DNA of 64,000 nucleotides from Nocardiopsis sp. FR4 (GTDB lineage Bacteria; Actinomycetota; Actinomycetes; Streptosporangiales; Streptosporangiaceae). The stretch lies in contig NZ_VWVV01000004.1 of NCBI RefSeq assembly GCF_009830945.1, positions 310,001 through 374,000 on the forward strand. Direction: 5' to 3'. The first letter of the stretch is position 1. Every line of letters begins with the position of its first letter. The translations under genes and the position numbers were made by a program. The notes beneath the pieces were generated by a model. That model did not search any database and had not been told where the DNA came from. It saw only the letters and a program-made list of their open reading frames with translations. This document shows positions 28,840 through 40,458 of this stretch, one piece after another.

Positions 28840-28878
28840 AGAGGTGGAAGAGGGGGAGTCGGCCGATAAGCCGGATTC
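28840..28878. repeat. attL: 39-bp copy of the rnpB 3' end
   Basis: Identical over 39 bp to 40062-40100. It includes GATAAGCCGGATTC and GGGGGAGTCGGCC, the reverse complement of the last 23 nt of RNase P RNA plus 16 nt downstream. Only this fragment of rnpB is present here, so it is the duplicated end left by site-specific integration. Confidence 0.9.
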
Positions 28879-29312
28879 CACCACGCCCGTTCCGCTGACC
28901 TCGGACGACACCCACAGAAGCCGCGTCACCTGCGACGACAGGTCTCGCGGCTTCTCGCTGTTCCTCGGTGCTCCCCAGCCTCTGAGCAAGCACAGAGCAA
29001 ACACGGGCAACACCGCTGGCGTAGGTCGTCGTGCAACCCATCGCGGCACCTGGCCTACCTGCACCTGGACACCGAAAACCCGTCTGAGCTGTGGTTTCAC
29101 AGCTCACGGACTCTCGGTGTTTCTCAGCTCTGCCCATACCCATGTGCACCCGATGTGCGCCGCCACAAGCTGCTGGCCGGAGCGTTTCGATCGAAAGTTA
29201 GCTTCCACCATGCCCAGCCCGTTGACCTCAACTGACGTTCCTCGCAAGTATGCCGCCTGCGATGACAGGTCTCGCGGCTTCTTGGTGTCCCCGGCCTCCG
29301 AGCAAGCGCATG
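28876..29312 (+). repeat. Three related hairpin-bearing repeat units near attL
   Basis: Unit A (about 28876-28990) and unit B (about 29208-29310) align over about 100 bp, sharing TTCCACCA, GACAGGTCTCGCGGCTTCT and GAGCAAGC. A diverged unit C lies between them (about 29050-29140). Unit A folds as AGAAGCCGCG facing CGCGGCTTCT with an inner ACCTG/CAGGT pair. Unit C has a perfect GAGCTGTG-GTTT-CACAGCTC stem extended by ACACCGA/TCGGTGT. The conserved landmark sits at 28946, 29105 and 29273, spacing 159 and 168 bp. Role unknown: integrase arm sites, a transcribed RNA, or relics. Confidence 0.55.
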
Positions 29313-29365
29313 TGTCACTGGCCAGCGATACGATCCAAAACCATCACCACAAGCAAGGAAAAGTA

Positions 29366-30325
29366 ATGCCCAAGAAGACAAAAAAGAACCAAAGCAAGAA
29401 GCAAAAGATAAACAACAGCGGAAAAAAGGCAATAATTTGGCATGAAATGACAATCGAGGAAGACTTCACCAAGGCCGCGAGTCGCATCTTTCGAATGCTC
29501 AAAAATTGCCAAGATAGATTTCCCAACAAAAAGCGAGCGCTATATATCGACGTCCAGGGCCACAGGAACAGCGAAGGGGGGTTCGATCATGACGCCTTCG
29601 AGTTGATCCACTATTTTGCCCTTGAGAAAATGGCACAGTATCTGACAGAAGTAAGGACTCCTCTGATTCACATCATCACCAATAAACCACAACTACCCCT
29701 ACCCGAAGAGCTCATCATAACCGATGAGAAAAATGAGTACTCATTTGACTTCCAAGAGCTTAAAAATCGACCACGGGAAGACTCACCAGATAAAAGGAAG
29801 ACCTATCCAACCACGCAAGCAATCATGGCTTACCTTGGAATGAAGGAGTTTCGCTGCCTGATCTGCTGGACCAGCGAATCAGTTGAACGAGCACACGCGG
29901 TACCGCGATCCCTAGGCGGATCAAACGATGTGCGAAATTTCGCACCACTGTGCACTGACCACCACAAAGCTTCGCCCGATGTTGCCGACTCCGAGGCGTT
30001 CTGGTCCTGGATAGACCACGAACGAAATAAATACTCAGATAATCGCCAAAAAGCAATCATGGAAATTTTCAACCCAAAAGAAGCGAGTCCAGGGAGTCAG
30101 AAAATTGACGATGGTTCAGACAACTTCTTTCGATTGGTCAAGGCAGAGCTCATAAGTCTCTACAACTGGAAAGAGGAGGACTTCTCCGCCGCACCTTGGG
30201 AGCTAATGGAACAATACCAAACGGTACTAAAGGAAGCAACTGGGAAACACTTTGCGATCGACAAAAAGGTTTCAACTCATGCGTGGGCTTTCAATGTTGC
30301 AAAACAAAGGATAGAAAAAGAGTGA
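29366..30325 (+). CDS. HNH-endonuclease-domain protein of AT-rich, foreign composition
   Basis: A 319-residue protein with a basic Lys-rich N-terminus (MPKKTKKNQSKKQK). An unrecognised domain follows (about 35-150, with YIDVQGHRN and LIHIITNKPQLPL), then an HNH domain at 160-205. C164/C167 and C196/H199 form the zinc pairs, and H177, N191, H200 are the HNH triad (ERAHAVPRSLGGS, NFAPLCTDHHK). The C-terminal 110 residues are helical and unknown. The ATG at 29366 has AAGGAA 5 nt upstream. The gene is well under half GC, against about 70% around it, so it is recently acquired cargo. A defence or anti-plasmid nuclease is possible but unproven. Confidence 0.75.
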   Translation: MPKKTKKNQSKKQKINNSGKKAIIWHEMTIEEDFTKAASRIFRMLKNCQDRFPNKKRALYIDVQGHRNSEGGFDHDAFELIHYFALEKMAQYLTEVRTPLIHIITNKPQLPLPEELIITDEKNEYSFDFQELKNRPREDSPDKRKTYPTTQAIMAYLGMKEFRCLICWTSESVERAHAVPRSLGGSNDVRNFAPLCTDHHKASPDVADSEAFWSWIDHERNKYSDNRQKAIMEIFNPKEASPGSQKIDDGSDNFFRLVKAELISLYNWKEEDFSAAPWELMEQYQTVLKEATGKHFAIDKKVSTHAWAFNVAKQRIEKE

Positions 30326-30980
30326 GATGGCTCGAAAAATTCAAGCCAGCGCTCCAACCAAAGGAAAAACTTCTCTTTTTTATAAATTAACCATTCTTTC
30401 TCTATCTTATCTGCTTTCTGCTCTCTTCTGAGGCCCTGCTTCCTGGTGTCCTGCGCCCGTCACCCGCTGCCCTGGTCTGGTTCTCTGGAGCATGCTCGCC
30501 CCGGCCTTCCCGCTTGTCGGTCCAGTCCACCCCTTGGTCTCTGGACTTTTGCCGCCCTTGGTTCGCCCTCCTGAGACGAACGCTGTGCCCGATCTCCTTG
30601 GGCACGGCGGGGCGCGCGAGGACGCGCCGCGCGGGACGCAGGCGAGCGCGGACGCGGCGCGCCTACCGCCGGACACCCGTCAGGGTGTCCAGCAACCGCG
30701 CTTGCGCACTCTTGGTTGCTCGGTACATCAAAACACTCGCATTGATCCGCCGGAGAGAATCCCCGGTGGCTCATGCTCCGCGACACCCGCGTCCCCAACG
30801 CCCCGGTCCTGCGTCCGTTCCCTGAAACACCCCCGCCGGCCCGCGTGTTCGCCCCGCGTCCGCTCCATCACCCTCGGCCCGGCCTGCCTCATTCGCTTTG
30901 CGCTTCGACCCGCCCAGGTCGAATCAGCAAAAGAACCAGGCCCCTACTACTTCATACCCCTCCCCTTCCGTTACCCTCCC

Positions 30981-31019
30981 GGGGAGGCGTGTAGCGCCGC
31001 AGGCGCTACGCGCCTCCCC
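30981..31019. repeat. 18-bp-stem hairpin
   Basis: Bases 30981-30998 (GGGGAGGCGTGTAGCGCC) pair with 31002-31019 along the full 18 bp, with one G-T pair, around the loop GCA. It abuts the next, larger inverted repeat without a gap. Confidence 0.85.
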
Positions 31020-31171
31020 GGTCCCTCTTCCCGTCACCCTTCATCCACGCCCCGCGCGACCGCGCCGCCCAGGGGCCACAAGGTGGAGCGCCCCACTGTC
31101 CGAACGACCTTGTGGCCCCTGGGTGGTGTGGTAGGTCTCTGACTGGATGAAGGGTGACGGGAAGAGGGACC
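31020..31171. repeat. Nested 152-bp inverted-repeat structure
   Basis: Outer arms 31020-31047 and 31144-31171 are perfect 28-bp reverse complements (beginning GGTCCCTCTTCCCG). Inner arms 31068-31084 and 31107-31123 are a further perfect 17 bp (CCCAGGGGCCACAAGGT), with a 22-nt apex. There are no obvious target-site duplications, so a MITE is less likely than a functional cruciform, single-strand origin, clt/oriT site or structured RNA. Confidence 0.85.
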
Positions 31172-31420
31172 TATCACCACAGACCACCGCAGCGGTTCAG
31201 GCTGTCCCCCGCTTCCTGGATCCCTGATTCCCCGCCGGAGGCATGTCTTCACGGAAGCAACCGCGGAGTGGTGACCGCCAGCAACGCGCTCAGCCGTTCG
31301 CCCTCCTGACTGCGTCCCGCACCTGGCCCGCTCAGCTCAGCCGCAGGCTGCCCCGCACCGCAGGTGCGGGCTTGAAGACGTAAGGAAACTTCTCATCACC
31401 CGGCTCCGGGCATGAAGAAA

Positions 31421-31446
31421 CCCGGAAGACTCTAAGATCTTCCGGG
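31421..31446 (-). terminator. Intrinsic terminator of the gntR-Nudix operon
   Basis: A perfect 9-bp stem (CCCGGAAGA at 31421-31429 with 31438-31446), 8-nt loop, followed on the minus strand by TTTCTTC. It lies 12 bp past the Nudix stop codon. Confidence 0.85.
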
Positions 31447-31458
31447 CTACTCCCTGAC

Positions 31459-31884
31459 TCACACCAGGTTCGTGCCATCGTGGCACCGGATGAATGGGCC
31501 GTCATCCCGCAAAGCGTCCAAGACACGGATCAGCCTCGCTTCCGGCATCCGTTCACGCGCCTCCTCGACGCTGACCCACCGGACTGCTTTCGCCTCATCC
31601 GACGGTCGCGGTTCTCCGGATTCGACCGTGCACGCGATGGCCATACTCACCACGCCGAGTGGCATGTTCTTGTAGACCCCGACCAGGCGTCCCGGCTTGA
31701 CCTTCACACCGGTCTCTTCGAAGACTTCGCGGACAACTCCATCCCTGGGGTCTTCGTGTAGCTCCAGAACTCCGCCGGGTGGAACCCATCGGCCATCGTC
31801 GTCGCGCTCGATCGCTAGGACCTGGCCGTCATCGTTGAACACCACACCCGTGACACTGACGGAGTGCTTTGGGATCTCAGCCAT
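31459..31884 (-). CDS. Nudix hydrolase of the element
   Basis: A 141-residue Nudix protein. The signature GX5EX7REVXEEXGU is complete at 38-60 (beginning GVLELHE and ending REVFEETGV), so it should hydrolyse a nucleoside-diphosphate derivative with Mg2+. Its ATG overlaps the end of the gntR gene by 8 bp, so the two are co-translated. Nudix genes paired with a GntR repressor recur in pSAM2-like elements; the substrate there is not established. A terminator follows directly. Confidence 0.9.
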   Translation of the reverse strand: MAEIPKHSVSVTGVVFNDDGQVLAIERDDDGRWVPPGGVLELHEDPRDGVVREVFEETGVKVKPGRLVGVYKNMPLGVVSMAIACTVESGEPRPSDEAKAVRWVSVEEARERMPEARLIRVLDALRDDGPFIRCHDGTNLV

Positions 31885-32641
31885 CCTGACCCTCTTCCCA
31901 CTCGTACACGAGGGACCAGGCGTAGGCGTCCAGGACGTTCACTGTCACATCGACGTTCGTGCCCTTCGCATCGATGCCTGTTCGGGTCACCACGATGACC
32001 GGAAGCCCTCCGTCGATTCCGAGGAAGTCCACCTCTTCTTGAAGGGGTCGGCGGATGGTGATCTCCTCAGTGAATCTGACCGGCCTGTGTCCTCGCTCTC
32101 CGAGACGCCGGTACATCTCCGTGGGGCCCGCATCGGGGAAAGCGATGTCGATGCTTCCCGCGACGGCCATCGGGATGTGAGAGGTCGCCAGTTGGACCGG
32201 ACGGCCGGAAGCGCTCATGTGACGCTGACGAACCAAAACCTCCGCATCGGCGGGCAACCCAAGATGGTCTGCGATCTCGGGGGAAGCTTTCTCCACCTCG
32301 CACTTCACCAGGCGTGCGCTCGACTCAAGTCCGAGCCTCTCCATCTCCTGGGCGAAGGTGCTGCCGGTGCTCTTGCCCCGGTCGAACGGGATGCGCCTGA
32401 CACGCTGTGCCCTCTGCCGGGAGCTGACGAACGTGCCCTTCCCCTGGCGGCCGTAGATGTCGCCTGAAGTCTTGAGTGCCTGGATCGCGTTCTTGATGAC
32501 GGTTGACGAGACCCCGTACTCCTCAGCGATCTCCGCGAAGGAGGGCAGCTTGTCTCCGGGCTTCAGGTCTCCACGCTGGATCTTCGCGCGGATGTCATCC
32601 ACGATCCGCCGGTAGAAGACCTCGTCCTCTGCGAACTTCAT
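31877..32641 (-). CDS. GntR/HutC-family repressor (KorSA-like)
   Basis: A 254-residue regulator: N-terminal winged helix (about 5-72; LPSFAEIAEEYGVSSTVIKNAIQ, GTFV), then a UTRA effector domain (about 95-245). In pSAM2, the related KorSA represses transfer and replication genes of the element. It is divergent from the SCO3933-like gene and the transfer operon. The 142-bp shared region contains three GTGYAC palindromes that are probable operators. First gene of the operon with the Nudix hydrolase. Confidence 0.9.
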   Translation of the reverse strand: MKFAEDEVFYRRIVDDIRAKIQRGDLKPGDKLPSFAEIAEEYGVSSTVIKNAIQALKTSGDIYGRQGKGTFVSSRQRAQRVRRIPFDRGKSTGSTFAQEMERLGLESSARLVKCEVEKASPEIADHLGLPADAEVLVRQRHMSASGRPVQLATSHIPMAVAGSIDIAFPDAGPTEMYRRLGERGHRPVRFTEEITIRRPLQEEVDFLGIDGGLPVIVVTRTGIDAKGTNVDVTVNVLDAYAWSLVYEWEEGQDG

Positions 32642-32667
32642 CTATCCCTCCTTGACCTGCGAGCTTA

Positions 32668-32769
32668 GTGCACTTAGATCTCCAAGCGATGTGCGGCCTG
32701 CCTCGATCTTCTTGCCTTCCACTCCAACTTGGTGTACAAAGTACTCACAACTTAGAACACCAAGTGCAC
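32668..32769. promoter_or_regulatory. Probable GntR operators in the divergent promoter
   Basis: GTGCAC at 32668-32673 (in CTTAGTGCACTTAG), GTGTAC at 32732-32737 (in TTGGTGTACAAA) and GTGCAC at 32764-32769 (in CAAGTGCACCAAGG) recur around the start regions of both divergent genes. CTTGGTGT (32728) also faces ACACCAAG (32757). The last site overlaps the ribosome site of the SCO3933-like gene. Confidence 0.55.
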
Positions 32770-32783
32770 CAAGGAGATTCCTG

Positions 32784-33116
32784 ATGCGAAGCATCCCCGT
32801 TGACACGTCCCGGATGGTCTTCATCGCGGCTGGTTCCCCGCGCCCCAAGGTCAAGGACCGCCAGACCGGCGAGATCAAGTACAACGCCGACGGCTCCCCG
32901 ATGTGGCAGCTCCAGGTCTTGGCGCAGGTGGAGGACAACGACGCCGAGACCCTGCTGATCAGCTTCCCGGCCGCGCACGCGATCACCGCTCGCCTGGGCA
33001 CCCCGCTGAACGTGCAGGACCTGACGGCGATCCCGTGGGAGACCAACGGCCGTCACGGCGTGGCTTTCGCCGCCGCCTCGATCGCGCCCATGGACCCGCG
33101 CAAGAGCGTTGAGTGA
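32784..33116 (+). CDS. SCO3933-family element protein
   Basis: A 110-residue protein resembling the SCO3933 family, found next to transfer genes of actinomycete elements and annotated as regulatory. It starts MRSIPVDTSRMVFIAAGSPR after AAGGAG. Features: DRQTGEIKYNADGSPMWQLQVL and a C-terminal GRHGVAFAAASIAPM. No known DNA-binding motif is visible; a beta-rich OB-like fold is plausible. It opens the transfer operon, and its TGA overlaps the ATG of the next tiny gene (TGATG). Confidence 0.75.
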   Translation: MRSIPVDTSRMVFIAAGSPRPKVKDRQTGEIKYNADGSPMWQLQVLAQVEDNDAETLLISFPAAHAITARLGTPLNVQDLTAIPWETNGRHGVAFAAASIAPMDPRKSVE

Positions 33117-33220
33117 TGCCTGCCTGCTCGGTGTGTGCGGGCACCGGGGAGGTCCGGCACATGCCCGGCTTCCGCCTCACCCTGTGCCCCACCTGCCATG
33201 GCAAAGGCGAAACCTCCTGA
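33116..33220 (+). CDS. 34-aa double CxxCxGxG zinc-ribbon micro-protein
   Basis: Two DnaJ-type zinc motifs, CSVCAGTG and CPTCHGKG, within 34 residues. The start overlaps the preceding stop and the translocase follows after 13 bp, so it is translated within the transfer operon. It could bind one zinc ion through the four cysteines. First of a family of such genes in this element. Confidence 0.7.
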   Translation: MPACSVCAGTGEVRHMPGFRLTLCPTCHGKGETS

Positions 33221-33233
33221 GAGGAGAAGGTTG

Positions 33234-34571
33234 ATGTTCCCCGAGATTCTGTGGGCGGTCCCTCCGGCCGCCGCTGCGGTGCCGCTCTCGGCCGCCGCCT
33301 GGCACCACTGGTCGCCTACCACCTGGTCCTACGGTCCCGGCCTGGTCGGTTCCGCTCTGCGCGTGCACCTGACGTGGGAGGACGTAGCCCAGGGCTGCGG
33401 GCTCTCCTACACCCGCCGTAAGACCCAGGTCAAGGGCGGGGTGCGCCGGGTGAGCGTGCAGAAGAAGCCCAGGCTGCGCCGGTTCCGCCCGACCCCCTAC
33501 GGGTTCCGGGTCCGTGCCCGCCTGCACGACGGCCAGACCCCGGAGGACTACCAGGAAGCGCTGACCCGGCTGGCGCACGCCTGGCGGGTGGACGCGGTCC
33601 GCATCCGCACTTCCGGGCCCGGGTGGGTGGAACTGGTGGCCTCGCGCCGCGACCCGCTGAGCACCGTCACCAACGCCGCGCCGCTGGCCCCGGACTGGGA
33701 GCTGCTCAAGGTCCGCATGGGCACCCTGGAAACCGGCGACCCGTGGATCATCGACTTCCGGGCGGTGCCGCACTGGCTGATCATGGGCGCCACCCAGTCG
33801 GGCAAGTCCACCGACATCAACGCCCTGGTCTACCAACTGGCGCCCCAACCCGTGGCGCTGGCCGGGCTGGATCTCAAGGGCGGTGTGGAACTGACCCCCT
33901 ACGCCCGGCGGATGTCGAAGCTGGCCACGACCCGCACGGAGTGCGTGGTGCTGCTCGATGACCTGATGGCCATGCTCAACGACCGGATGACCCTGTGCCG
34001 TGAGGCGGGGGTGCGCAACATCTGGCAGTTGCCCGAAACCGACCGGCCCATGCCGGTGGTCACCGTGGTCGATGAGGTCGCGGAACTGTACCTGATGACG
34101 GACAAGTCCGAGAAGGACGAGATCGCGCGCACGTCCACGCTGCTGTTGCGCAACGCCCAACTGGGCCGCGCCTTCGGGCTGCACCTGGTGATCGCAGGAC
34201 AGCGGGTCGGCTCCGACCTGGGTCCGGGTGTGACCGCGCTGCGCTCGCAGATCACCGGGCGGATCTGCCACCGGGTCAACGACGGCGAGACGGCCAAGAT
34301 GGCGCTCGGTGACCTGGCCCCGGACTCACTGTCGGCCGCGATGAGGATCCCCGCCGAGATGCCCGGGGTGGCCGTGACCGTGGGAGCGGACGGGCGCTGG
34401 TACCGGGGCCGCTCTGACCTGACCACGGAGGAGATGGCCGAACAGGCCTCGGCCGAATACGCGCACATGGCCCCGGACTGGGACCTGTTGGTCTCGGGCC
34501 GGACCAAGGAGAAGGAAACCGTTCCGGCCGACGCCGTCGACTGGGACCGACTGGAAGAGGAGATGTCCTGA
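33234..34571 (+). CDS. FtsK/SpoIIIE-like conjugal DNA translocase (TraSA/TraB type)
   Basis: A 445-residue ATPase that in actinomycete elements moves double-stranded DNA between hyphae as a membrane hexamer. The N-terminus has a hydrophobic stretch (about 5-25) and no further membrane domain. Walker A GATQSGKST is at 185-193, Walker B VVTVVDE ends at D280/E281. A later GRAFGLHLVIAGQRVGSDLG is the FtsK-type motif region. Ribosome site GAGGAGAAGG precedes the ATG. The stop overlaps the next small gene's ATG. No winged-helix gamma domain is evident at the C-terminus. Confidence 0.92.
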   Translation: MFPEILWAVPPAAAAVPLSAAAWHHWSPTTWSYGPGLVGSALRVHLTWEDVAQGCGLSYTRRKTQVKGGVRRVSVQKKPRLRRFRPTPYGFRVRARLHDGQTPEDYQEALTRLAHAWRVDAVRIRTSGPGWVELVASRRDPLSTVTNAAPLAPDWELLKVRMGTLETGDPWIIDFRAVPHWLIMGATQSGKSTDINALVYQLAPQPVALAGLDLKGGVELTPYARRMSKLATTRTECVVLLDDLMAMLNDRMTLCREAGVRNIWQLPETDRPMPVVTVVDEVAELYLMTDKSEKDEIARTSTLLLRNAQLGRAFGLHLVIAGQRVGSDLGPGVTALRSQITGRICHRVNDGETAKMALGDLAPDSLSAAMRIPAEMPGVAVTVGADGRWYRGRSDLTTEEMAEQASAEYAHMAPDWDLLVSGRTKEKETVPADAVDWDRLEEEMS

Positions 34572-34711
34572 TGACCTGCGAGTTCTGTTCCAACACCGCG
34601 ACCACGCGCGCTATCTCGGGCGGGCAGTCGTCCTGGGTGTGCAACACCCACTACGCGGACATGGAAGCCAACTTCGACGGGGACCTGCGCGGGTTCCGCA
34701 ACTGGGTGTGA
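34571..34711 (+). CDS. 46-aa Cys/His micro-protein
   Basis: Starts in overlap with the translocase stop. Contains CEFC, then VCNTHY, a C2-CH pattern fitting a single zinc ribbon. The tail ends FRNWV. Shares the C..C / VC..HY plan with the next gene. Function unknown; probably co-expressed with transfer genes. Confidence 0.6.
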   Translation: MTCEFCSNTATTRAISGGQSSWVCNTHYADMEANFDGDLRGFRNWV

Positions 34712-34717
34712 TCGGCC

Positions 34718-34825
34718 ATGGCGCTCTCCTACTGGTGCACGCGGTGCTGCAAGAACGCCTACACCAAGACCACGACCACCGACGAGTGGGTGTGTGAAGC
34801 CCACTATCGCGAGATCGACGGATAG
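34718..34825 (+). CDS. 35-aa Cys/His micro-protein
   Basis: MALSYWCTRCCKNAYTK followed by WVCEAHYREIDG: the same CxxC...WVCxxHY plan as the preceding gene, so the two are probably duplicates that diverged. Spacing to both neighbours is under 7 bp. No recognisable ribosome site beyond coupling. Confidence 0.55.
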   Translation: MALSYWCTRCCKNAYTKTTTTDEWVCEAHYREIDG

Positions 34826-34828
34826 CCC

Positions 34829-34951
34829 ATGACCTGCCAGATGTGCGGCACGGGCGGCGCCTACCGGGTCAAGAACGCGGTCGGTGTGACCTACACGGTC
34901 TGCAAGCGGTGTGACTGGCTGTACTTCGACTACGACTGGGGTGAGACATGA
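34829..34951 (+). CDS. 40-aa double-CxxC micro-protein
   Basis: CQMCGTGGAY and CKRCDWL form two CxxC knuckles. ATG lies 3 bp after the previous stop, and its TGA overlaps the ATG of the SpdB-like gene. Tail is aromatic and acidic (YFDYDWGET). Confidence 0.6.
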   Translation: MTCQMCGTGGAYRVKNAVGVTYTVCKRCDWLYFDYDWGET

Positions 34952-35655
34952 AGCGCGCACTGTCCGTGTCGGCGGACTGGGGTCCGATCCTGGTACTGGC
35001 CGGGATCGCCGCTGCGGGCTCCTTCACCCACATCCGCGACCTGGCCGAGAAGTCGGGACAGCACGGGTGGATGGCCTGGGCTATCGCGGTCTCCATCGAC
35101 CTGACCTGCGTGATGGCGGCCCGGGAGCGTCAGCGTGATGCCGACCGTGGTACCTCGGCAGGCTTGACGTGGCCGACCGTGGTCCTGGTCGGGGCGGTGG
35201 TGCTGACCCTGGCGGCGAATCTGGCCACGGCTCAGCCCACGGTGTGGGGCTGGATCATGGCCGCGACTCCGGCCGCCGCGTTCCTGGTGGCGGTGTCCAT
35301 GTTGGAACGCCGCGCCGCTCACCGCGCTCCCACCGAGGAACCGGCCCCGGCCACTGAGGCTGAGGCTGGGGAAGGGCGTGAGGAGTACAGGGTCACCGAG
35401 GTGCGCTGGCAACACACCGAAACCGCCCCGCCCTCCGCCCCGACGCCTGAGCCTGCGCCTGCTCCGGTGGCCGCGCCTGCACCACCGGCCCCGGTCGCCG
35501 TGGAACAGGGTCACCCGTTGGCCTCCTACGCCGCTCAGCTCGCCCAGGACTACCGGGTCACCCATGGCCGTGAGATCACCGTGACCGCGTTGCGCTCCCG
35601 GCTGGGGGTCTCCGAAACGGTGGCCGCGACCCTGCGTGACCAGATCACCAGCTGA
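34948..35655 (+). CDS. SpdB-like/DUF2637 spread membrane protein
   Basis: A 235-residue membrane protein with four TM helices in the first 120 residues (ILVLAGIAAAGSFTHI, WMAWAIAVSIDLTCVMAA, VVLVGAVVLTLAANLATA, MAATPAAAFLVAVSM). A Pro/Glu/Ala-rich linker and a C-terminal helical domain (LRSRLGVSETVAATLRDQI, HTH-like) follow. DUF2637/SpdB proteins take part in intramycelial spread of conjugative elements. ATGA overlap with the upstream gene. Confidence 0.82.
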   Translation: MKRALSVSADWGPILVLAGIAAAGSFTHIRDLAEKSGQHGWMAWAIAVSIDLTCVMAARERQRDADRGTSAGLTWPTVVLVGAVVLTLAANLATAQPTVWGWIMAATPAAAFLVAVSMLERRAAHRAPTEEPAPATEAEAGEGREEYRVTEVRWQHTETAPPSAPTPEPAPAPVAAPAPPAPVAVEQGHPLASYAAQLAQDYRVTHGREITVTALRSRLGVSETVAATLRDQITS

Positions 35656-35676
35656 CAGAGAGGAGGTGATCGCTCG

Positions 35677-35757
35677 ATGCAGTGCCCCACCTGCGCGGGA
35701 ACCAAGGTAAGCCGCACCGGCACATGCAGGTCCTGTAAGGGAACCGGATCCCTCTGA
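35677..35757 (+). CDS. 26-aa zinc-knuckle micro-protein
   Basis: MQCPTCAGTKVSRTGTCRSC and KGTGSL: CPTCAGT plus CRSCKGTG, two halves of a DnaJ-type zinc ribbon in 26 residues. Ribosome site GAGAGGAGG 11 nt before the ATG. Among the smallest genes in the window; accepted because it repeats the motif plan of its neighbours. Confidence 0.55.
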   Translation: MQCPTCAGTKVSRTGTCRSCKGTGSL

Positions 35758-35769
35758 GAGGAGAACGAC

Positions 35770-35901
35770 GTGAACACCAAGACCGTGAAGTGCCTGGACT
35801 GCTCCGGCACCGGCCGCGTGCTCGCTCAAAAGTTCGGGCTGTTGGTGCGCAAGTACCACGCCTGCCCCACCTGCAAGGGCACCGGGACGGTGAAGCTGTG
35901 A
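35770..35901 (+). CDS. 43-aa double CxxCxGxG micro-protein
   Basis: CLDCSGTG and CPTCKGTG with a 20-residue basic spacer (VLAQKFGLLVRKYHA). GTG start with GAGAGGAGAACGAC upstream. The stop overlaps the GTG of the next gene. Confidence 0.65.
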   Translation: MNTKTVKCLDCSGTGRVLAQKFGLLVRKYHACPTCKGTGTVKL

Positions 35902-36035
35902 AGGACTGCTCGCACTGCCAGGGGACTGGACAGGTCGTCGAAGACGTGCCCATGCGACGCAAGGACCTGCCCGGACAGCAAGCCTGGTGCCTGTCCTGCC
36001 TGGGCACCGGCAAGACCACTGCACACGAGAACTGA
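35898..36035 (+). CDS. 45-aa double CxxCxGxG micro-protein
   Basis: CSHCQGTG and CLSCLGTG, spacer 26 residues. GTGA overlap with the upstream paralogue-like gene, so translation is coupled. Ends KTTAHEN. Confidence 0.65.
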   Translation: MKDCSHCQGTGQVVEDVPMRRKDLPGQQAWCLSCLGTGKTTAHEN

Positions 36036-36055
36036 CCTGAGAAAGGACGAACATC

Positions 36056-36199
36056 ATGGCAACCAAGTACGAGACCTGCAACATCTGCAACGGCACGGGC
36101 CGGGTCGTGGTCGAGAAGCTGGGGATCCTGGGAGGGCGCCGGTACGGGACCTGCGGCAAGTGCGACGGCTCCGGCAAGACCGTCCGGTACACCCGCTGA
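36056..36199 (+). CDS. 47-aa double CxxCxGxG micro-protein
   Basis: CNICNGTG and CGKCDGSG with spacer RVVVEKLGILGGRRYGT, closely parallel to the gene at 35770. Ribosome site GAAAGGACG. Very likely a diverged duplicate. Confidence 0.65.
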   Translation: MATKYETCNICNGTGRVVVEKLGILGGRRYGTCGKCDGSGKTVRYTR

Positions 36200-36206
36200 A
36201 CCCGCG

Positions 36207-36314
36207 ATGACTGTGCCTGACAGCTGTCTGTGTTCGACCTGCTACGGCCACGGCGTCACCAGCGAGGGTGACACCTGCTCCGACTGCTCGGGCTACGGCC
36301 ACACCTCGACCTGA
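36207..36314 (+). CDS. 35-aa double CxxC micro-protein
   Basis: CSTCYGHG and CSDCSGYG in 35 residues. It starts 7 bp after the preceding stop and ends 3 bp before the first of the three conserved-loop hairpins. Confidence 0.6.
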   Translation: MTVPDSCLCSTCYGHGVTSEGDTCSDCSGYGHTST

Positions 36315-36317
36315 CCG

Positions 36318-36356
36318 GACGGAACGGCACTGCTTCCACACACCCGCCGAACCGTC
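36318..36356 (+). promoter_or_regulatory. Conserved-loop hairpin, copy 1
   Basis: Stem GACGGAACGGC (36318-36328) with GCCGAACCGTC (36346-36356), nine of eleven pairs, loop ACTGCTTCCACACACCC. It lies between two micro-protein genes. The 45 bp downstream (ACCAACCCAACACGCGA and an SD-like GAAGGAG) resemble those after copy 2. Confidence 0.6.
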
Positions 36357-36414
36357 ACCTGCTTCGCCTGACCAACCAACCCAACACGCGACACGAGAAC
36401 GAAGGAGACACGCC

Positions 36415-36489
36415 GTGAACTGCTGGGAGAAGCCCACGAAGGGCGATGACGAGACCACCAAGCTGACCGTGGGGAAGCCGACCCGATGA
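36415..36489 (+). CDS. 24-aa hypothetical micro-protein
   Basis: MNCWEKPTKGDDETTKLTVG and a short tail. Only one Cys, so it is not of the ribbon type. Accepted because GAAGGAG lies 8 nt before its GTG and its stop overlaps the next gene's ATG (ATGA). Function unknown. Confidence 0.4.
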   Translation: MNCWEKPTKGDDETTKLTVGKPTR

Positions 36490-36590
36490 GGCGCACCGAG
36501 ACCTGCCGCCACTGCGGCTCGCCGGTCAGCTACAGCGGCCCGATCGACACCGCCCCGCAGCGGTGCTTCCACTGCCCCAAGTCGGCCTAG
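36486..36590 (+). CDS. 34-aa double-CxxC micro-protein
   Basis: CRHCGSPV and CFHCPKSA: two CxxC knuckles, spacing 20. Start in ATGA overlap with the preceding gene. Followed after 11 bp by hairpin copy 2. Confidence 0.6.
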   Translation: MRRTETCRHCGSPVSYSGPIDTAPQRCFHCPKSA

Positions 36591-36601
36591 ACAGCAAAGC
36601 G

Positions 36602-36642
36602 CCGGGGTGCGGCGCTGCTTCCACACACCCGCCGCACCCCGG
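36602..36642 (+). promoter_or_regulatory. Conserved-loop hairpin, copy 2
   Basis: A 12-bp perfect stem, CCGGGGTGCGGC (36602-36613) with its complement (36631-36642), loop GCTGCTTCCACACACCC, 16 of 17 nt the same as copy 1 while the stem differs. The downstream sequence again has AACCCAACACGCGA and AAGGAACGAAAGG before the next gene. Confidence 0.7.
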
Positions 36643-36702
36643 TTCACCTACCCAACGAACCCAACACGCGAATGCAAGGAACGAAAGGGGCCCGACCAGC
36701 CT

Positions 36703-37110
36703 ATGACATCCAACGCCTTCCCCACGGTGTTCGCCGCGATGACGGCCGCGCACCACGCGGGTGACTACCTCCTCCAGAACGACCACCAGGCCCAGCACAA
36801 GACTGAGTCCTGGACAGCGAACCAGGCGCACGTGGCCAGCTACCACCTGGCCCAGCTCGCCGCTGTCGGCCTGGCCTCCCGCGTCCTGGGGCTGCGGCTC
36901 TCCCCCGTCCGGCTGGCCGCCGGGGTGGCCGTGTCCTGGGTGACGCACTCGGTGATCGACCGCCGTTGGCCGGTGCGCTGGTGGATGACCCACACCGGCT
37001 CCAAGGGCTTCTACGCCAACGGCGGTGCCCCGCACGCAGACCAGGCCATGCACCACGCCGCCCTGTTCGTGGCCGCACTCGTGGCCACCTCCGGGGGCGA
37101 ACCGTCGTGA
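36703..37110 (+). CDS. DUF3307-like membrane protein of the element
   Basis: A 135-residue protein with HHAGDYLLQND near the N-terminus, reminiscent of the H...D..LQ motif of DUF3307. It has two or three hydrophobic helices (SYHLAQLAAVGLASRVLG, LAAGVAVSWVTHSVID, HHAALFVAALVAT) and several conserved-looking His/Asp. Function unknown; similar genes occur on actinomycete plasmids and phages. It follows hairpin copy 2, and its stop overlaps the next GTG. Confidence 0.65.
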   Translation: MTSNAFPTVFAAMTAAHHAGDYLLQNDHQAQHKTESWTANQAHVASYHLAQLAAVGLASRVLGLRLSPVRLAAGVAVSWVTHSVIDRRWPVRWWMTHTGSKGFYANGGAPHADQAMHHAALFVAALVATSGGEPS

Positions 37111-37205
37111 ACCGCCCGCTCTGTCAGAGCAGCAACGTCAGGGATCACAGCCGCAACGGCGAACACCTGGGCTCCTCGTGTGGGGACTGCTCGAACACCT
37201 GGTAA
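37107..37205 (+). CDS. 32-aa Cys-containing micro-protein
   Basis: GTGA overlap start. Contains LCQSSNVRDHSRNGEHLGSS then CGDCSNTW: one clear CxxC plus an isolated Cys and His residues, so possibly a variant ribbon. Followed by hairpin copy 3 and then repSA. Confidence 0.45.
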   Translation: MNRPLCQSSNVRDHSRNGEHLGSSCGDCSNTW

Positions 37206-37230
37206 CCCCCGACCTCTGACCGCTTCTCGG

Positions 37231-37273
37231 CCCTGGTGACGGTGCTGCTTCCACAACACCCGCCGCACCAGGG
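37231..37273 (+). promoter_or_regulatory. Conserved-loop hairpin, copy 3, upstream of the replication gene
   Basis: Stem CCCTGGTG (37231-37238) with CACCAGGG (37266-37273), continued past one bulged A by CGGTG with CGCCG. Loop CTGCTTCCACAACACC, the same core as copies 1 and 2 with a different stem. It lies 33 bp before the repSA start and could control replication. Confidence 0.65.
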
Positions 37274-37305
37274 CCTCACCTATCCACGAAAGGCCCTGCT
37301 TCGTC

Positions 37306-38712
37306 ATGTCCGAACCCGAACACATCGGCGGACTCCTCGGCCCCGCCCTGGCCCGGATCACCGCCATGGACGAGAACCACCTGGACCGGTGGATCACCCG
37401 TGCCCGCGCTCTGCGCGGTTGCTCCTGCCCGGTCCGCCTGACCGGCGAGACCACCCGACTGGACCCTGAGACGGGCGAGGTGTTCTCGCACTACTCCACT
37501 GCCACGGAACCGGCCAACGAACTGCTGATGCGGTGCAAGAACCGTCGCGCCTCCCGGTGTCCCTCCTGCTCGGAGGAATACCGCGCTGACACCTACCACC
37601 TGGTCAAGGCTGGGATCGTCGGCGGGGACAAGGGCGTGCCTTCCTCGGTGAGGGTGCATCCGCGGGCGTTCATCACCTTGACCGCTCCCTCCTTCGGTCC
37701 GGTCCACCGTGGCCCGGGGAAGGACGGCCGTACTCGGGTCTGCCACCCGCGCCGGAGCGGTGCGGCTTGCTTCAAGCACCACCGCGCGGAAGACCCCCTC
37801 ATCGGCCAACCCCTGGACCCGGCCGCCTACGACTACGTGGGACACGTGCTCTGGCACGCTCACACCGGGGAGTTGTGGCGGCGCTTCACCCTGTACCTGC
37901 GCAACCACCTGGCCTCGGCCGCCGGCCTCTCGCGCACGGAGTTCTCCAAGCGAGTGCGCGTCTCCTACGCCAAGGTCGCTGAGTTCCAATCCCGGGGCGC
38001 GGTGCACTTCCACGCGGTGATCCGCCTGGACGGCTACACCAAGGACCCCGGCGCGTGGCCGCCGCCCCCGGTGTGGGCCAGCATGGACATGCTCACCGCC
38101 GCCGTGGATTCGGCCGCTCGGGCGGTCTCGCTCACCTCTCCGGAGGTCAACGGCCGCACCTGGGAACTGGCCTGGGGCGAGCAGGTGGACGTGCGCCCCA
38201 TCGAGAGCTTCGGTCCCGATCGGGCGCTCACCGACACGGCCGTGGCCGGGTACATCGCCAAGTACGCCACCAAGGCTGCTGAGGACACCGGCACCCTGGA
38301 CCGGCGTATTCACGACATCGACCACGTGGACATGACCCAGGTCCGGCCCCACGCGGGCAGGCTCATCTACACCTGCTGGCGGCTGGGGAACGCCCGCCTG
38401 TACCCCCAACTTGAAGGGCTCAAGCTGCGTCAGTGGGCGCACATGCTCGGGTTCCGGGGCCACTTCTCGACCAAGTCGCGTCGCTACTCCACGACCCTGG
38501 GCAAGCTGCGTCAGGTGCGTGCCGACTACGCGGCCGGACGCCCCTGGGACACCGAGACCTTCACCCCGCTCGTGGTCCAGGACGAAGAGACCACGCTGAC
38601 CCTGACCAACTGGCACTACCTCGGACAGGGGCTCTCCCCCGGCGAGTGGGCGTTGGCGTCCATGGTGGCCGGGATAGGCCGTACCACCGAGGATGCGGAG
38701 GTGTCCCGGTGA
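37306..38712 (+). CDS. RepSA-type rolling-circle replication initiator
   Basis: A 468-residue initiator for excised-element replication. A Cys-rich N-terminal part (CSCP, CKNRRASRCPSCSEEY) resembles a zinc module. The HUH motif is AVHFHAV (H234, H236) and candidate nicking tyrosines are Y316 and Y320 (AGYIAKYATK). A C-terminal ST-rich segment (GHFSTKSRRYSTTLG) is typical of RepSA. The ATG at 37306 has GAAAGG 14 nt upstream. The gene's stop overlaps the excisionase start. The double-strand origin usually lies in or next to this gene; no nick site was identified. Confidence 0.9.
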   Translation: MSEPEHIGGLLGPALARITAMDENHLDRWITRARALRGCSCPVRLTGETTRLDPETGEVFSHYSTATEPANELLMRCKNRRASRCPSCSEEYRADTYHLVKAGIVGGDKGVPSSVRVHPRAFITLTAPSFGPVHRGPGKDGRTRVCHPRRSGAACFKHHRAEDPLIGQPLDPAAYDYVGHVLWHAHTGELWRRFTLYLRNHLASAAGLSRTEFSKRVRVSYAKVAEFQSRGAVHFHAVIRLDGYTKDPGAWPPPPVWASMDMLTAAVDSAARAVSLTSPEVNGRTWELAWGEQVDVRPIESFGPDRALTDTAVAGYIAKYATKAAEDTGTLDRRIHDIDHVDMTQVRPHAGRLIYTCWRLGNARLYPQLEGLKLRQWAHMLGFRGHFSTKSRRYSTTLGKLRQVRADYAAGRPWDTETFTPLVVQDEETTLTLTNWHYLGQGLSPGEWALASMVAGIGRTTEDAEVSR

Positions 38713-38885
38713 AGACCCTGGAACGCCTGTGGACCCTGGAAGAGACGGCCGCCTACCTCGGTGTCCCGGTCAAGACCCTGTACCAGTGGCGCTACCTGCG
38801 CACCGGCCCGCCCTCGCACCGGGTCGGCCGTCACGTCCGCTACGAACCGACCGAGGTCCGCGCCTGGGTCCTGGAACAGGACTGA
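38709..38885 (+). CDS. xis: Excisionase (AlpA/MerR-type HTH)
   Basis: A 58-residue helix-turn-helix protein: LWTLEETAAYLGVPVKTLYQ and RYEPTEVRAWVLEQ, the standard AlpA/excisionase fold that bends att DNA and steers the integrase toward excision. GTGA overlap with repSA. Positioned immediately upstream of int, as in pSAM2. Confidence 0.9.
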   Translation: MKTLERLWTLEETAAYLGVPVKTLYQWRYLRTGPPSHRVGRHVRYEPTEVRAWVLEQD

Positions 38886-38894
38886 GGGCCGCTC

Positions 38895-40001
38895 ATGGGA
38901 CACGTACAAGACCTGTGGAAGACCCGGGCAGGCGGTAAGACCGCCCGTTACGGCAAGGGCAAGCGGTATCTCGCCGTGTGGCGGGATCCCGGCGGCGAAC
39001 GGGCTACCCAGCTCTTCCGGCGCAAGGTGGATGCCGAGAAGCACGTCTCCGTCATGGAGACTGACCGGCTCCGGGGCGTCTACGTCGATCCCCGCGCGGG
39101 TCGGGTGACGGTTCGCGAGTACGCGGAGACCCGTTGGCTCCCTCAGCTCGTCCACGTGGCGGACGGGACCAAGGAGACCTATGAGCGCCATCTCCGGCAC
39201 CGGGTCTATCCGGCGTTCGGTGGACGTGAGATCGGTAGTGTGACGCGCGCTGACACCAAGTCCTTCGTGGCCCGGTTGGCGGGTGATCCGGGGCTGTCGG
39301 CGAGTACGGTGCACACGGCGTTCGCGACGCTGCGGATCCTCATGCAGGCCGCCGTGGATGACGAGATCATCACCGCCAACCCGTGCTCGCGCGTCAAGCT
39401 GCCCAGGCTCGGTGACCGGGTGGTCGACCCGCTTCCTGCGGATGCGGTCCTCGCCCTGGCGGACGAGATCAGCCCGCGCTACCGGGTGGCGGTCTTCCTC
39501 GGTGCCGGTGCTGGCCTGCGACGCGGTGAGGCTCTCGGGCTCGCCGTTCCCCGGATCGACTTCACCAGGCGCCATGTGGACGTGCGGGTCCAGGCGCAGA
39601 AGGGCAAGCTCGTGGAGCTCAAGACCAAGTACTCCCGGCGGATCGTGCCCGTTGACGACCTGGTGTTGGAAGAGGTCCGGCGGCACATGGAGCTCTACGA
39701 ACCGGCTCCGGGACAGGTGCTGATCAGCAACACGTGGAAGGCCGTGGCCAAGCCTTCGGCGTTCAACTCGGCCTGGTCCAACGCGGTGGCCAAGACGGGA
39801 TTGCCCAAGGGCACCCGCTTCCACGACCTGAGGCACTTCTACGCCTCGGCGCTCATCGCGGCCGGGGTGAACCCGAAGGCCATTCAGCACCGAATGGGGC
39901 ACGCCTCGATCACCGAGACCTTCGACACCTACGGGCACCTGTTCCCCGACCATGAGGAGCTGGGACGCGGGGCGATAGACCTGCTCCTGCGCTCCGGCTG
40001 A
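38895..40001 (+). CDS. int: Tyrosine recombinase integrase
   Basis: A 368-residue site-specific recombinase that integrates and excises the element. An N-terminal AP2-like arm-binding part (KRYLAVWRDPGGERATQLFR) and SAM-like core-binding domain (about 70-150) precede the catalytic domain. Catalytic residues: R209 (GLRRGEAL), H310 and R313 (HDLRH), H336 (MGHAS), Y346 (TYGHLF). It ends 60 bp from attR in rnpB. Intact in all catalytic positions, so probably active. Confidence 0.95.
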   Translation: MGHVQDLWKTRAGGKTARYGKGKRYLAVWRDPGGERATQLFRRKVDAEKHVSVMETDRLRGVYVDPRAGRVTVREYAETRWLPQLVHVADGTKETYERHLRHRVYPAFGGREIGSVTRADTKSFVARLAGDPGLSASTVHTAFATLRILMQAAVDDEIITANPCSRVKLPRLGDRVVDPLPADAVLALADEISPRYRVAVFLGAGAGLRRGEALGLAVPRIDFTRRHVDVRVQAQKGKLVELKTKYSRRIVPVDDLVLEEVRRHMELYEPAPGQVLISNTWKAVAKPSAFNSAWSNAVAKTGLPKGTRFHDLRHFYASALIAAGVNPKAIQHRMGHASITETFDTYGHLFPDHEELGRGAIDLLLRSG

Positions 40002-40061
40002 TCCGCCGGAGCAAACAAGGAGCAAACGCGGCCGACTCTCGCTCGCCGCGCACCTGGTCAG

Positions 40062-40100
40062 AGAGGTGGAAGAGGGGGAGTCGGCCGATAAGCCGGATTC
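40062..40100. repeat. attR: 39-bp repeat within rnpB 3' end
   Basis: Identical to 28840-28878. Here it forms the true 3' end of the intact RNase P RNA gene, so integration leaves a working copy. Sequence inside the element at 40018-40061 also resembles the chromosome flank 28797-28839, making the similarity longer than the perfect core. Confidence 0.9.
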
Positions 40101-40458
40101 TGTCGGTCCGTACGGACCGGGCGGTCATCCATCTGGGACCGTCGTTGCCGACGGCCTCGGTGCGGTCTACCCGCGGACTCGGGCGGGCCGCCCTCGAACA
40201 TCCGCGCGGGAACCCCGGGGTTCCCTTTTTGACCTTGCTCCGGGTGGGGTTTACCGAGCCGACCGGATCACTCCGGCCGCTGGTGGTCTCTTACACCACC
40301 GTTTCACCCTTACCACCGCGAGCGGTGGCGGTCTGTTTTCTGTGGCACTGTCCCGCGGGTCACCCCGGGTCGGTGTTACCGACCACCCTGCCCTGTGGAG
40401 TCCGGACTTTCCTCGGAACCGCGCACCCGGCGCGGTCCGCGACCGCCTGGCCGACTCC
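40077..40458 (-). ncRNA. rnpB: RNase P RNA, bacterial type A
   Basis: Catalytic RNA that trims 5' leaders of pre-tRNAs. On the minus strand the 5' end GAGTCGGCCAGGCGG pairs with the 3' end CGGCCGACTC. Universal blocks are present: GAGGAAAGTCCGGACTCC, ACAGTGCCACAGAAAACAG, GGTAAGGGTGAAACGGTGG, GTAAGAGACCACC, GGTAAACCCC, GCAAGGTCAA and the final AGAATCCGGCTTA. About 380 nt, normal for actinobacteria. The ends are approximate to a few nt. Its 3' end is the integration site of the element, which regenerates the terminal 23 nt. Confidence 0.96.

Follow-up and report, generated by a model that had tools for sequence, protein, structure and literature searches.

A pSAM2-type AICE with three hairpins

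The window, i.e., the whole stretch of DNA analysed here, is a 64-kb piece of a Nocardiopsis sp. FR4 contig (NZ_VWVV01000004.1). It holds an integrating mobile element, a pSAM2-type AICE, whose insertion site is the 3' end of rnpB. Rfam places the whole RNase P RNA (rnpB) at 40073-40458 on the minus strand, and no tRNA gene was found in the 64-kb window. The AICE encodes FtsK/TraB, a DUF2637 Spd-like protein, Cys-rich micro-genes, a DUF3307 protein, RepSA, a small Xis-like gene and an integrase. FtsK, DUF2637, RepSA and the integrase were assigned by Pfam, and GntR, NUDIX and Xis were named by eye. RepSA matches the Pfam families RepSA and REP_ORF2-G2P, and an H-F-H motif can be read in its sequence. 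From the Spd-like gene to DUF3307 (35679-36590) runs a series of small Cys-rich (CxxC) open frames. The features used below are as follows; R1 is the covariance model of the loop type found here, termed class B.

28840-40100, no strand: AICE holding the hairpins, flanked on either side by a 39-bp direct repeat (28840-28878, 40062-40100) of the rnpB 3' end
36318-36356, plus strand: hairpin copy 1, class B loop, arms GACGGAACGGC/GCCGAACCGTC at 36318-36328/36346-36356, R1 40.9 bits
36357-36414, plus strand: tail leading from copy 1 to its ribosome site (TCGCCTGACCAACCAACCCAACACG ... GAACGAAGGAGA), similar in the copy-1 homologues L020, L022 and L028
36415-36489, plus strand: predicted micro-gene 1 of 24 aa with a GTG start, read from the sequence; copy 1 leads it, and it overlaps micro-gene 2 (ATGA)
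36486-36590, plus strand: micro-gene 2, 34 aa, CxxC...CxxC, without a Pfam family match
36601-36643, plus strand: hairpin copy 2, class B loop, arms GCCGGGGTGCGGCG/CGCCGCACCCCGGT at 36601-36614/36630-36643, R1 77.6 bits (such copies were the source of the model)
36643-36702, plus strand: tail leading from copy 2 to its ribosome site (TTCACCTACCCAACGAACCCAACACGCGAATGCAAGGAACGAAAGG), near-identical in the otherwise divergent elements L024/L025
36703-37110, plus strand: DUF3307 gene, led by copy 2, PF11750 E 9.7e-8
37229-37275, plus strand: hairpin copy 3, class B loop, arms at 37229-37244/37261-37275, R1 37.6 bits
37276-37305, plus strand: short tail of copy 3 with the ribosome site (TCACCTATCCACGAAAGG), read from the sequence
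37306-38712, plus strand: repSA replication initiator, led by copy 3, PF20199 E 2.4e-159

A preceding sequence-only reading placed the three copies before a micro-gene pair, a DUF3307-like gene and repSA, and the gene assignments agree with this, the pair lying at 36415-36590 and the other two being identified by Pfam. It had also described one loop on three differing stems that still pair, which is what we find at the three positions, with the qualification that the stems of copies 2 and 3 are strong whereas that of copy 1 is weak taken alone. When both strands of the 64-kb window were scanned, CTGCTTCCACA gave exactly three exact occurrences, at 36330, 36615 and 37245, all on the plus strand. 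The longer pattern CTGCTTCCACAN{0,3}ACCC is found at these three places only in the 6.1-Mb genome; the bare 11-mer occurs nine times genome-wide (reversed control, 13).

Copy 2, which begins 10 nt past a TAG (36588-36590), has a stem of 14 bp including one G-T (-31.8 kcal/mol). The stem of copy 3, GGCCCTGGTG-A-CGGTG / CGCCG-CACCAGGGCC, comprises 15 bp with one bulged A and one T-G (-28.4 kcal/mol) and begins 23 nt past a TAA (37203-37205). Copy 1 begins 3 nt past a TGA (36312-36314) and folds as GACGG-AA-CGGC / GCCG-AA-CCGTC around the loop A-CTGCTTCCACACACCC, its nine pairs being interrupted by a 2x2 A-A internal loop (-8.2 kcal/mol). Ungapped stem scores were 38.5 for copy 2, 24 for copy 3 and only 12 for copy 1, against a median of 12.5 at random window positions (95% at 21.5, 99% at 28.5). 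The six other genomic sites of the 11-mer score 8.5 to 16, so copy 1 is no better than these and copies 2 and 3 are higher. Homologues of copy 1 likewise reach only 15 to 19, but when bulges are permitted five have folding energies of -11.3 to -19.8 kcal/mol. Family-level pattern matches outside the genus (L013-L017) score 12 to 18 and were judged chance, a range into which copy 1 and its homologues fall, so that the ungapped score cannot vouch for them. Because its ungapped stem score is not above chance, copy 1 is supported by its loop, tail and place, together with the bulged folds of its homologues, more than by its own stem.

The common tail reported for copies 1 and 2 is present as the shared AACCCAACACGCGA, and the tail of copy 3 is shorter. 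From hairpin end to start codon, the distances are 58, 59 and 30 nt for copies 1, 2 and 3, which is looser than in class A (see below). A coding explanation of copy 2 was discarded: an open frame crosses the hairpin, yet no frame is kept through it because the loop differs in length by one base between the window and its homologue in L022. Inspection by eye gave no consistent sign that the loop pairs with the tail or the ribosome site that follows it. Within micro-gene 2, the C-F-H codons at 36564-36572 read TGCTTCCAC, the hairpin loop core, approximately 50 nt ahead of copy 2, possibly by chance.

Stem covariation among class B relatives

A covariance-model search over related elements, as proposed in the sequence-only reading, did recover further copies: R1 finds 21 copies in nine elements from six genomes, six of the elements holding three copies and three holding one. 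The three-copy arrangement of the window is thus found again in five further elements. RepSA of the window type (E 1e-40) occurs in 5 of 40 genomes of the genus, and homologous elements with the same loop, mostly on different stems, were identified in four more genomes of the genus and in Actinorugispora (L026 was taken as the G266 genome and L027/L028 as the G042 genome, each counted once). Within the genus the stem of copy 2 is nearly unchanged; differences are seen in copies 1 and 3 and in those of Actinorugispora. Order-wide, 15 of 297 genomes gave R1 matches, of which the six strong ones are five of the window's genus plus Actinorugispora; the nine weak ones (E 7e-4 to 8e-3) were judged by eye to be chance. 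Six matches from a pattern scan of viral_contigs were judged likewise (ungapped stem scores 8 to 13.5).

Pairing is kept under sequence change, as the earlier covariation claim had it. All 10 modelled pairs vary, 9 of them on both sides. In the covariance-model alignment of 17 distinct rows, 92.0% of cells are paired versus 60.7% in shuffles, and the covariation score is 0.682 versus 0.155, although the alignment was fitted to the structure and these pairing figures therefore lean towards it. None of 500 shuffles reached the observed value on any of the five measures, and slid structure controls gave 33 to 46% paired versus 92%. Folding of arms independently of the model pointed in the same direction (native -25.2 versus swapped -17.7 kcal/mol; 19 natural and 342 swapped combinations). 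The stem is therefore kept by compensatory changes, as in a structured cis-acting leader RNA, with weak stems at copy 1.

A wider hairpin family in other AICEs

When the sequence upstream of RepSA was scanned for stems alone in 27 loci, including the Actinorugispora class B element, a different common loop with the core CCGCCAAG emerged in 17 of the 27, hereafter class A. Searching for GCCAAG/GCCAAA plus a stem raised this to 20 of 27, and CGACCAAG and GCCTGCCAGC are variants of the class A loop. We built a second covariance model, R2, from 15 class A hairpins; it contains the hairpin only, without positional information, and its source hairpins were picked for their stems, so that its pair counts are not independent evidence. 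Between 0 and 25 of 500 shuffles reached the observed class A pairing, in rows that were chosen for pairing.

In the genus of G530, R2 matched 64 of 101 genomes; we take this genus to be Streptomyces because the named Streptomyces locus L029 nests among its RepSA rows in the tree. In the window's family it matched 43 of 150 genomes, the window's own not among them. Across the class, 41 of 394 genomes were positive, and 40 of these 41 carry RepSA (E 1e-60 or better) versus 94 of 394 overall (Fisher p 2e-27, on the assumption that both counts refer to the same draw of 394 genomes). The sole positive genome without RepSA, G340, has FtsK-like, DUF3307-like and NUDIX-like frames (by eye) on the contig in question and shows the same layout. 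The 177 covariance-model rows reduce to 137 distinct places after opposite-strand and overlapping rows are dropped, and to 125 non-identical contexts, or 127 with two L230 places added. Of the R2 matches in the Streptomyces-like genus and the window's family, 60 places and a further 60 were read.

Class A and class B hairpins stand side by side before repSA in L119, L120 and L121. A CAACG[AG]ACC motif resembling the class B tail is found in 17 of 119 class A tails (0.2 in simple shuffles). Within this wider family of AICE hairpins, the loop of the window is the version specific to one lineage. Loop types group with RepSA clades in the RepSA tree, so that a host-encoded and an element-encoded factor cannot be told apart, and the idea of using loop type as a marker of the host or of RepSA was dropped since the tree leaves the two inseparable. 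A 40-nt class A query retrieved one Streptomyces and one Rhizobium plasmid record, as well as three Mycobacterium prophage records. In the latter, Mycobacterium abscessus prophages (MW584155.1 4417-4446 and two relatives), a 30-nt stretch with 87-90% identity to a class A hairpin lies inside an annotated gene.

Position relative to stop and start codons

Since R2 holds only the hairpin, the geometry of stop and start codons around its matches is independent evidence. A stop codon, counted in any frame and not linked to a called gene, lies within 15 nt upstream of the stem core in 119 of 125 class A contexts (median 7 nt) versus 123 of 746 control positions. Downstream, 106 of 117 called starts lie 40-49 nt past the hairpin, and 85 of 93 if ATG, GTG and TTG alone are considered; the caller covered a range of 18-64 nt, assigned 24 starts to ATC/ATT-type codons through a motif rule and left 8 of 125 contexts uncalled. 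Class A hairpins thus have a fixed place relative to the following gene, as expected of a cis-acting leader RNA, and the copies of the window are looser.

The genes that follow are functionally different. Of the 127 class A places, 69 are followed by the gene for RepSA, 39 by one for a Cys-rich microprotein, 3 by one for a GGDEF protein and 16 by other genes. The microproteins are similar to the CxxC frames of the window. The GGDEF (diguanylate cyclase-like) proteins come directly after the hairpin at L220:7984-8026, L263:1882-1918 and L283:1909-1951, all on the minus strand, and the one in L220 matches Pfam with E 1.9e-25.

In several elements, including that of the window, L220 and L221, two or three hairpins share a single loop on stems that differ. 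Two copies each are present in L219, L220, L221 and the L230 repeat unit, and in L221 they stand before TraB and before RepSA. In the L230 unit, one hairpin precedes the small gene ahead of FtsK, where by eye a TTGACA-type promoter-like site stands ahead of it and the start codon after it, and another precedes the small gene upstream of repSA. L230 (NZ_CP071873.1) is a circular Streptomyces formicae plasmid record of 27.8 kb that consists of approximately 2.7 tandem copies of a 10.4-kb AICE, either a multimer or an assembly artefact. At L216:15144-15182 (G139) the hairpin ahead of TraB has the usual spacing, with approximately 42 nt to the ATG (by eye), but is inverted, so that its conserved loop falls on the non-coding strand; no second case of this kind was noticed.

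Compared with coding windows, class A tails fold less (-5.2 versus -8.0), and compared with their own shuffles they fold more (-4.1); the latter result does not support the idea of an unstructured tail acting as a standby site. At 23 AICE loci (L156, L158, L163, L167, L178, L181, L184, L231, L237, L238, L240, L241, L243, L245-L247, L249, L258, L266, L267, L272, L277, L278) ATC/ATT-type codons come after the repSA ribosome site, in place of the ATG or TTG seen in relatives. Six of these (L158, L178, L240, L245, L266, L278) have no in-frame ATG, GTG or TTG for 60 codons, which suggests that repSA may start at AUC/AUU-type codons there.

Comparison with known systems

The sequence-only reading did not recognise the hairpin as a known family, and Rfam 15 at the gathering threshold matches none of the hairpins. 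At that threshold the window gave RNase P RNA only, and 11 other loci gave one tRNA only. The best sub-threshold match, Scr3202 (RF02833) over copy 2, is not a member (23 bits versus a cut-off of 52, E about 1).

Phage coat-protein operators and boxB/nut hairpins are protein-binding leader hairpins. The AICE hairpins resemble these in having a conserved loop on a freely covarying stem, a position upstream of a gene and several sites per putative factor. Unlike them, they keep a near-fixed spacing to stop and start codons, and their loop type changes among lineages.

Another short conserved motif repeated in conjugative elements is sps of Streptomyces plasmids, described (PMC4170104) as a palindrome of 12 bp that lies mainly within the coding region of spdA and that SpdA2 binds as duplex DNA. 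In contrast to sps as described there, which lacks a long stem or a conserved loop, the AICE hairpins are intercistronic, have longer stems and expose unpaired conserved loops; they are not a 12-bp palindrome in spdA. Such hairpins are undescribed among the literature matches listed for AICE, pSAM2, pIJ101, spdB, repSA and Streptomyces, judged by title and abstract opening. One such hairpin may have been described earlier as part of an origin, and the review by te Poele et al. may treat the origin of pSAM2. The family is widespread in related actinomycete elements and apparently undescribed.

Proposed role and alternative explanations

The loop is conserved, the stem covaries, the place relative to stop and start codons is fixed, and the family is associated with AICEs. 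A variable stem with a conserved loop at a fixed gap before functionally different genes fits an mRNA hairpin read by a factor, and the order of stop codon, hairpin, about 45 nt and start codon points to mRNA. Considering these features, the hairpins are probably intercistronic mRNA control elements of AICEs, with a loop read by a factor that tunes selected genes. Because there is little promoter room between stop codon and stem, the hairpin most likely lies inside an operon mRNA.

We infer that the hairpin is transcribed, that a factor binds its loop and that expression changes as a consequence. It would fold in the gap that separates the upstream stop codon from the ribosome-binding site serving the following gene. 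Presenting the loop would be the sole task of the stem, hence its drift in sequence with compensatory changes, and the loop (CTGCTTCCAC in Nocardiopsis and Actinorugispora, CCGCCAAG and variants elsewhere) would be read by a putative trans-acting factor, probably a protein, which might raise or lower translation or stability of the downstream message. A post-transcriptional regulon for replication and transfer would then comprise the hairpin-led genes, namely repSA, traB with the small gene ahead of it, and those for DUF3307, GGDEF and Cys-rich microproteins. A ribosome stopping at the upstream stop codon would presumably cover the base of the stem, and coupling to upstream translation is conceivable. 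No candidate for the loop-reading factor was found. Observations that count against an mRNA hairpin are the 54 of 94 RepSA genomes of the class sample without an R2 match, the inverted copy in L216, the chance-level ungapped stem scores of copy 1 and its homologues, the near-equal numbers of G-T and A-C pairs in class A stems, the folding of class A tails relative to their shuffles and the looser start-codon spacing of the window copies.

The sequence-only reading had left the choice between a functional RNA and a single-stranded DNA structure. The structure itself is supported; as between RNA and ssDNA, the 34 distinct arm pairs of class A contain 9 G-T and 10 A-C pairs, so that G-T is not favoured, a near-equality that could suit DNA. 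Rolling-circle double-strand origins classically present a conserved nick sequence in a loop whose stem varies, and the hairpin might be a recognition or nick site of RepSA (HUH). The Pfam matches and H-F-H motif of RepSA speak for this, as do the 69 of 127 class A hairpins directly upstream of repSA and the L216 inversion, which suits a DNA site better than an RNA site. The antisense of the class A loop is moreover CTTGGCGG, which may be reminiscent of a pC194-like CTTG site. Nick sites have been reported in this group, te Poele et al. having assigned pSAM2 to the pC194 family by its nick site (PMC3218068) and pJV1 being nicked at CCTAGGTAAA just upstream of its rep gene (PMC13346255). However, two or three copies in the same orientation per element would be expected to split the element into sub-circles. 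A double-strand origin is linked to rep and normally present once per replicon, and here six class B elements have three copies. Furthermore, copies stand before traB, GGDEF, DUF3307 and micro-genes with a spacing tied to start codons. The class B loop lacks CTTG on either strand, unlike a pSAM2/pC194-type origin, and by eye neither loop resembles the pJV1 site. We therefore regard an ssDNA role as less likely than an mRNA hairpin and, taken by itself, as unlikely.

Stems that are GC-rich and directly follow stop codons in class A, and that are strong in class B copies 2 and 3, could also act without any specific factor, as a processing or stability barrier or as a factor-dependent terminator uncoupling neighbouring genes. 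Such a barrier needs no conserved loop, yet the loop is the most conserved part, and we hold a generic hairpin to be quite unlikely. Nor is it an intrinsic terminator, because no T-run follows the stem: class A tails contain 11% T, and class B tails are alike by reading. Very improbable, in our view, is a double-stranded DNA operator in which a transcription factor binds the loop sequence as a duplex and the inverted arms are incidental. The conserved core of 8-11 nt is of the usual operator size, Pra activates the pSAM2 replication operon (PMC8584621), and one inverted copy (L216) is known. Nonetheless, the arms of class B show strong covariation and are little conserved in sequence, which duplex binding does not require, promoter room between stop codon and stem is scant, and the fixed distance is to the start codon.

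Returning to the factor-read mRNA hairpin, a more far-reaching version, which we put forward only tentatively and consider rather doubtful, is that one RNA-binding factor might read the loops as address tags before replication, transfer and regulatory genes and switch these together upon excision of the element. The loop variants (CCGCCAAG, CGACCAAG, GCCTGCCAGC, CTGCTTCCAC) would then be separate addresses insulating coexisting elements.

Implications for AICE biology

AICEs are important self-transmissible elements of antibiotic-producing actinomycetes, and their control, as described in PMC8584621, is transcriptional, through KorSA and Pra. Given that 40 of 41 positive genomes carry repSA, the class A hairpin can serve as a repSA marker. 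It also offers a ready target for reporter tests and for the tuning of pSAM2-type vectors. If the proposed role is true, an RNA layer of control would be added to the rolling-circle replication and FtsK-type transfer of these elements.
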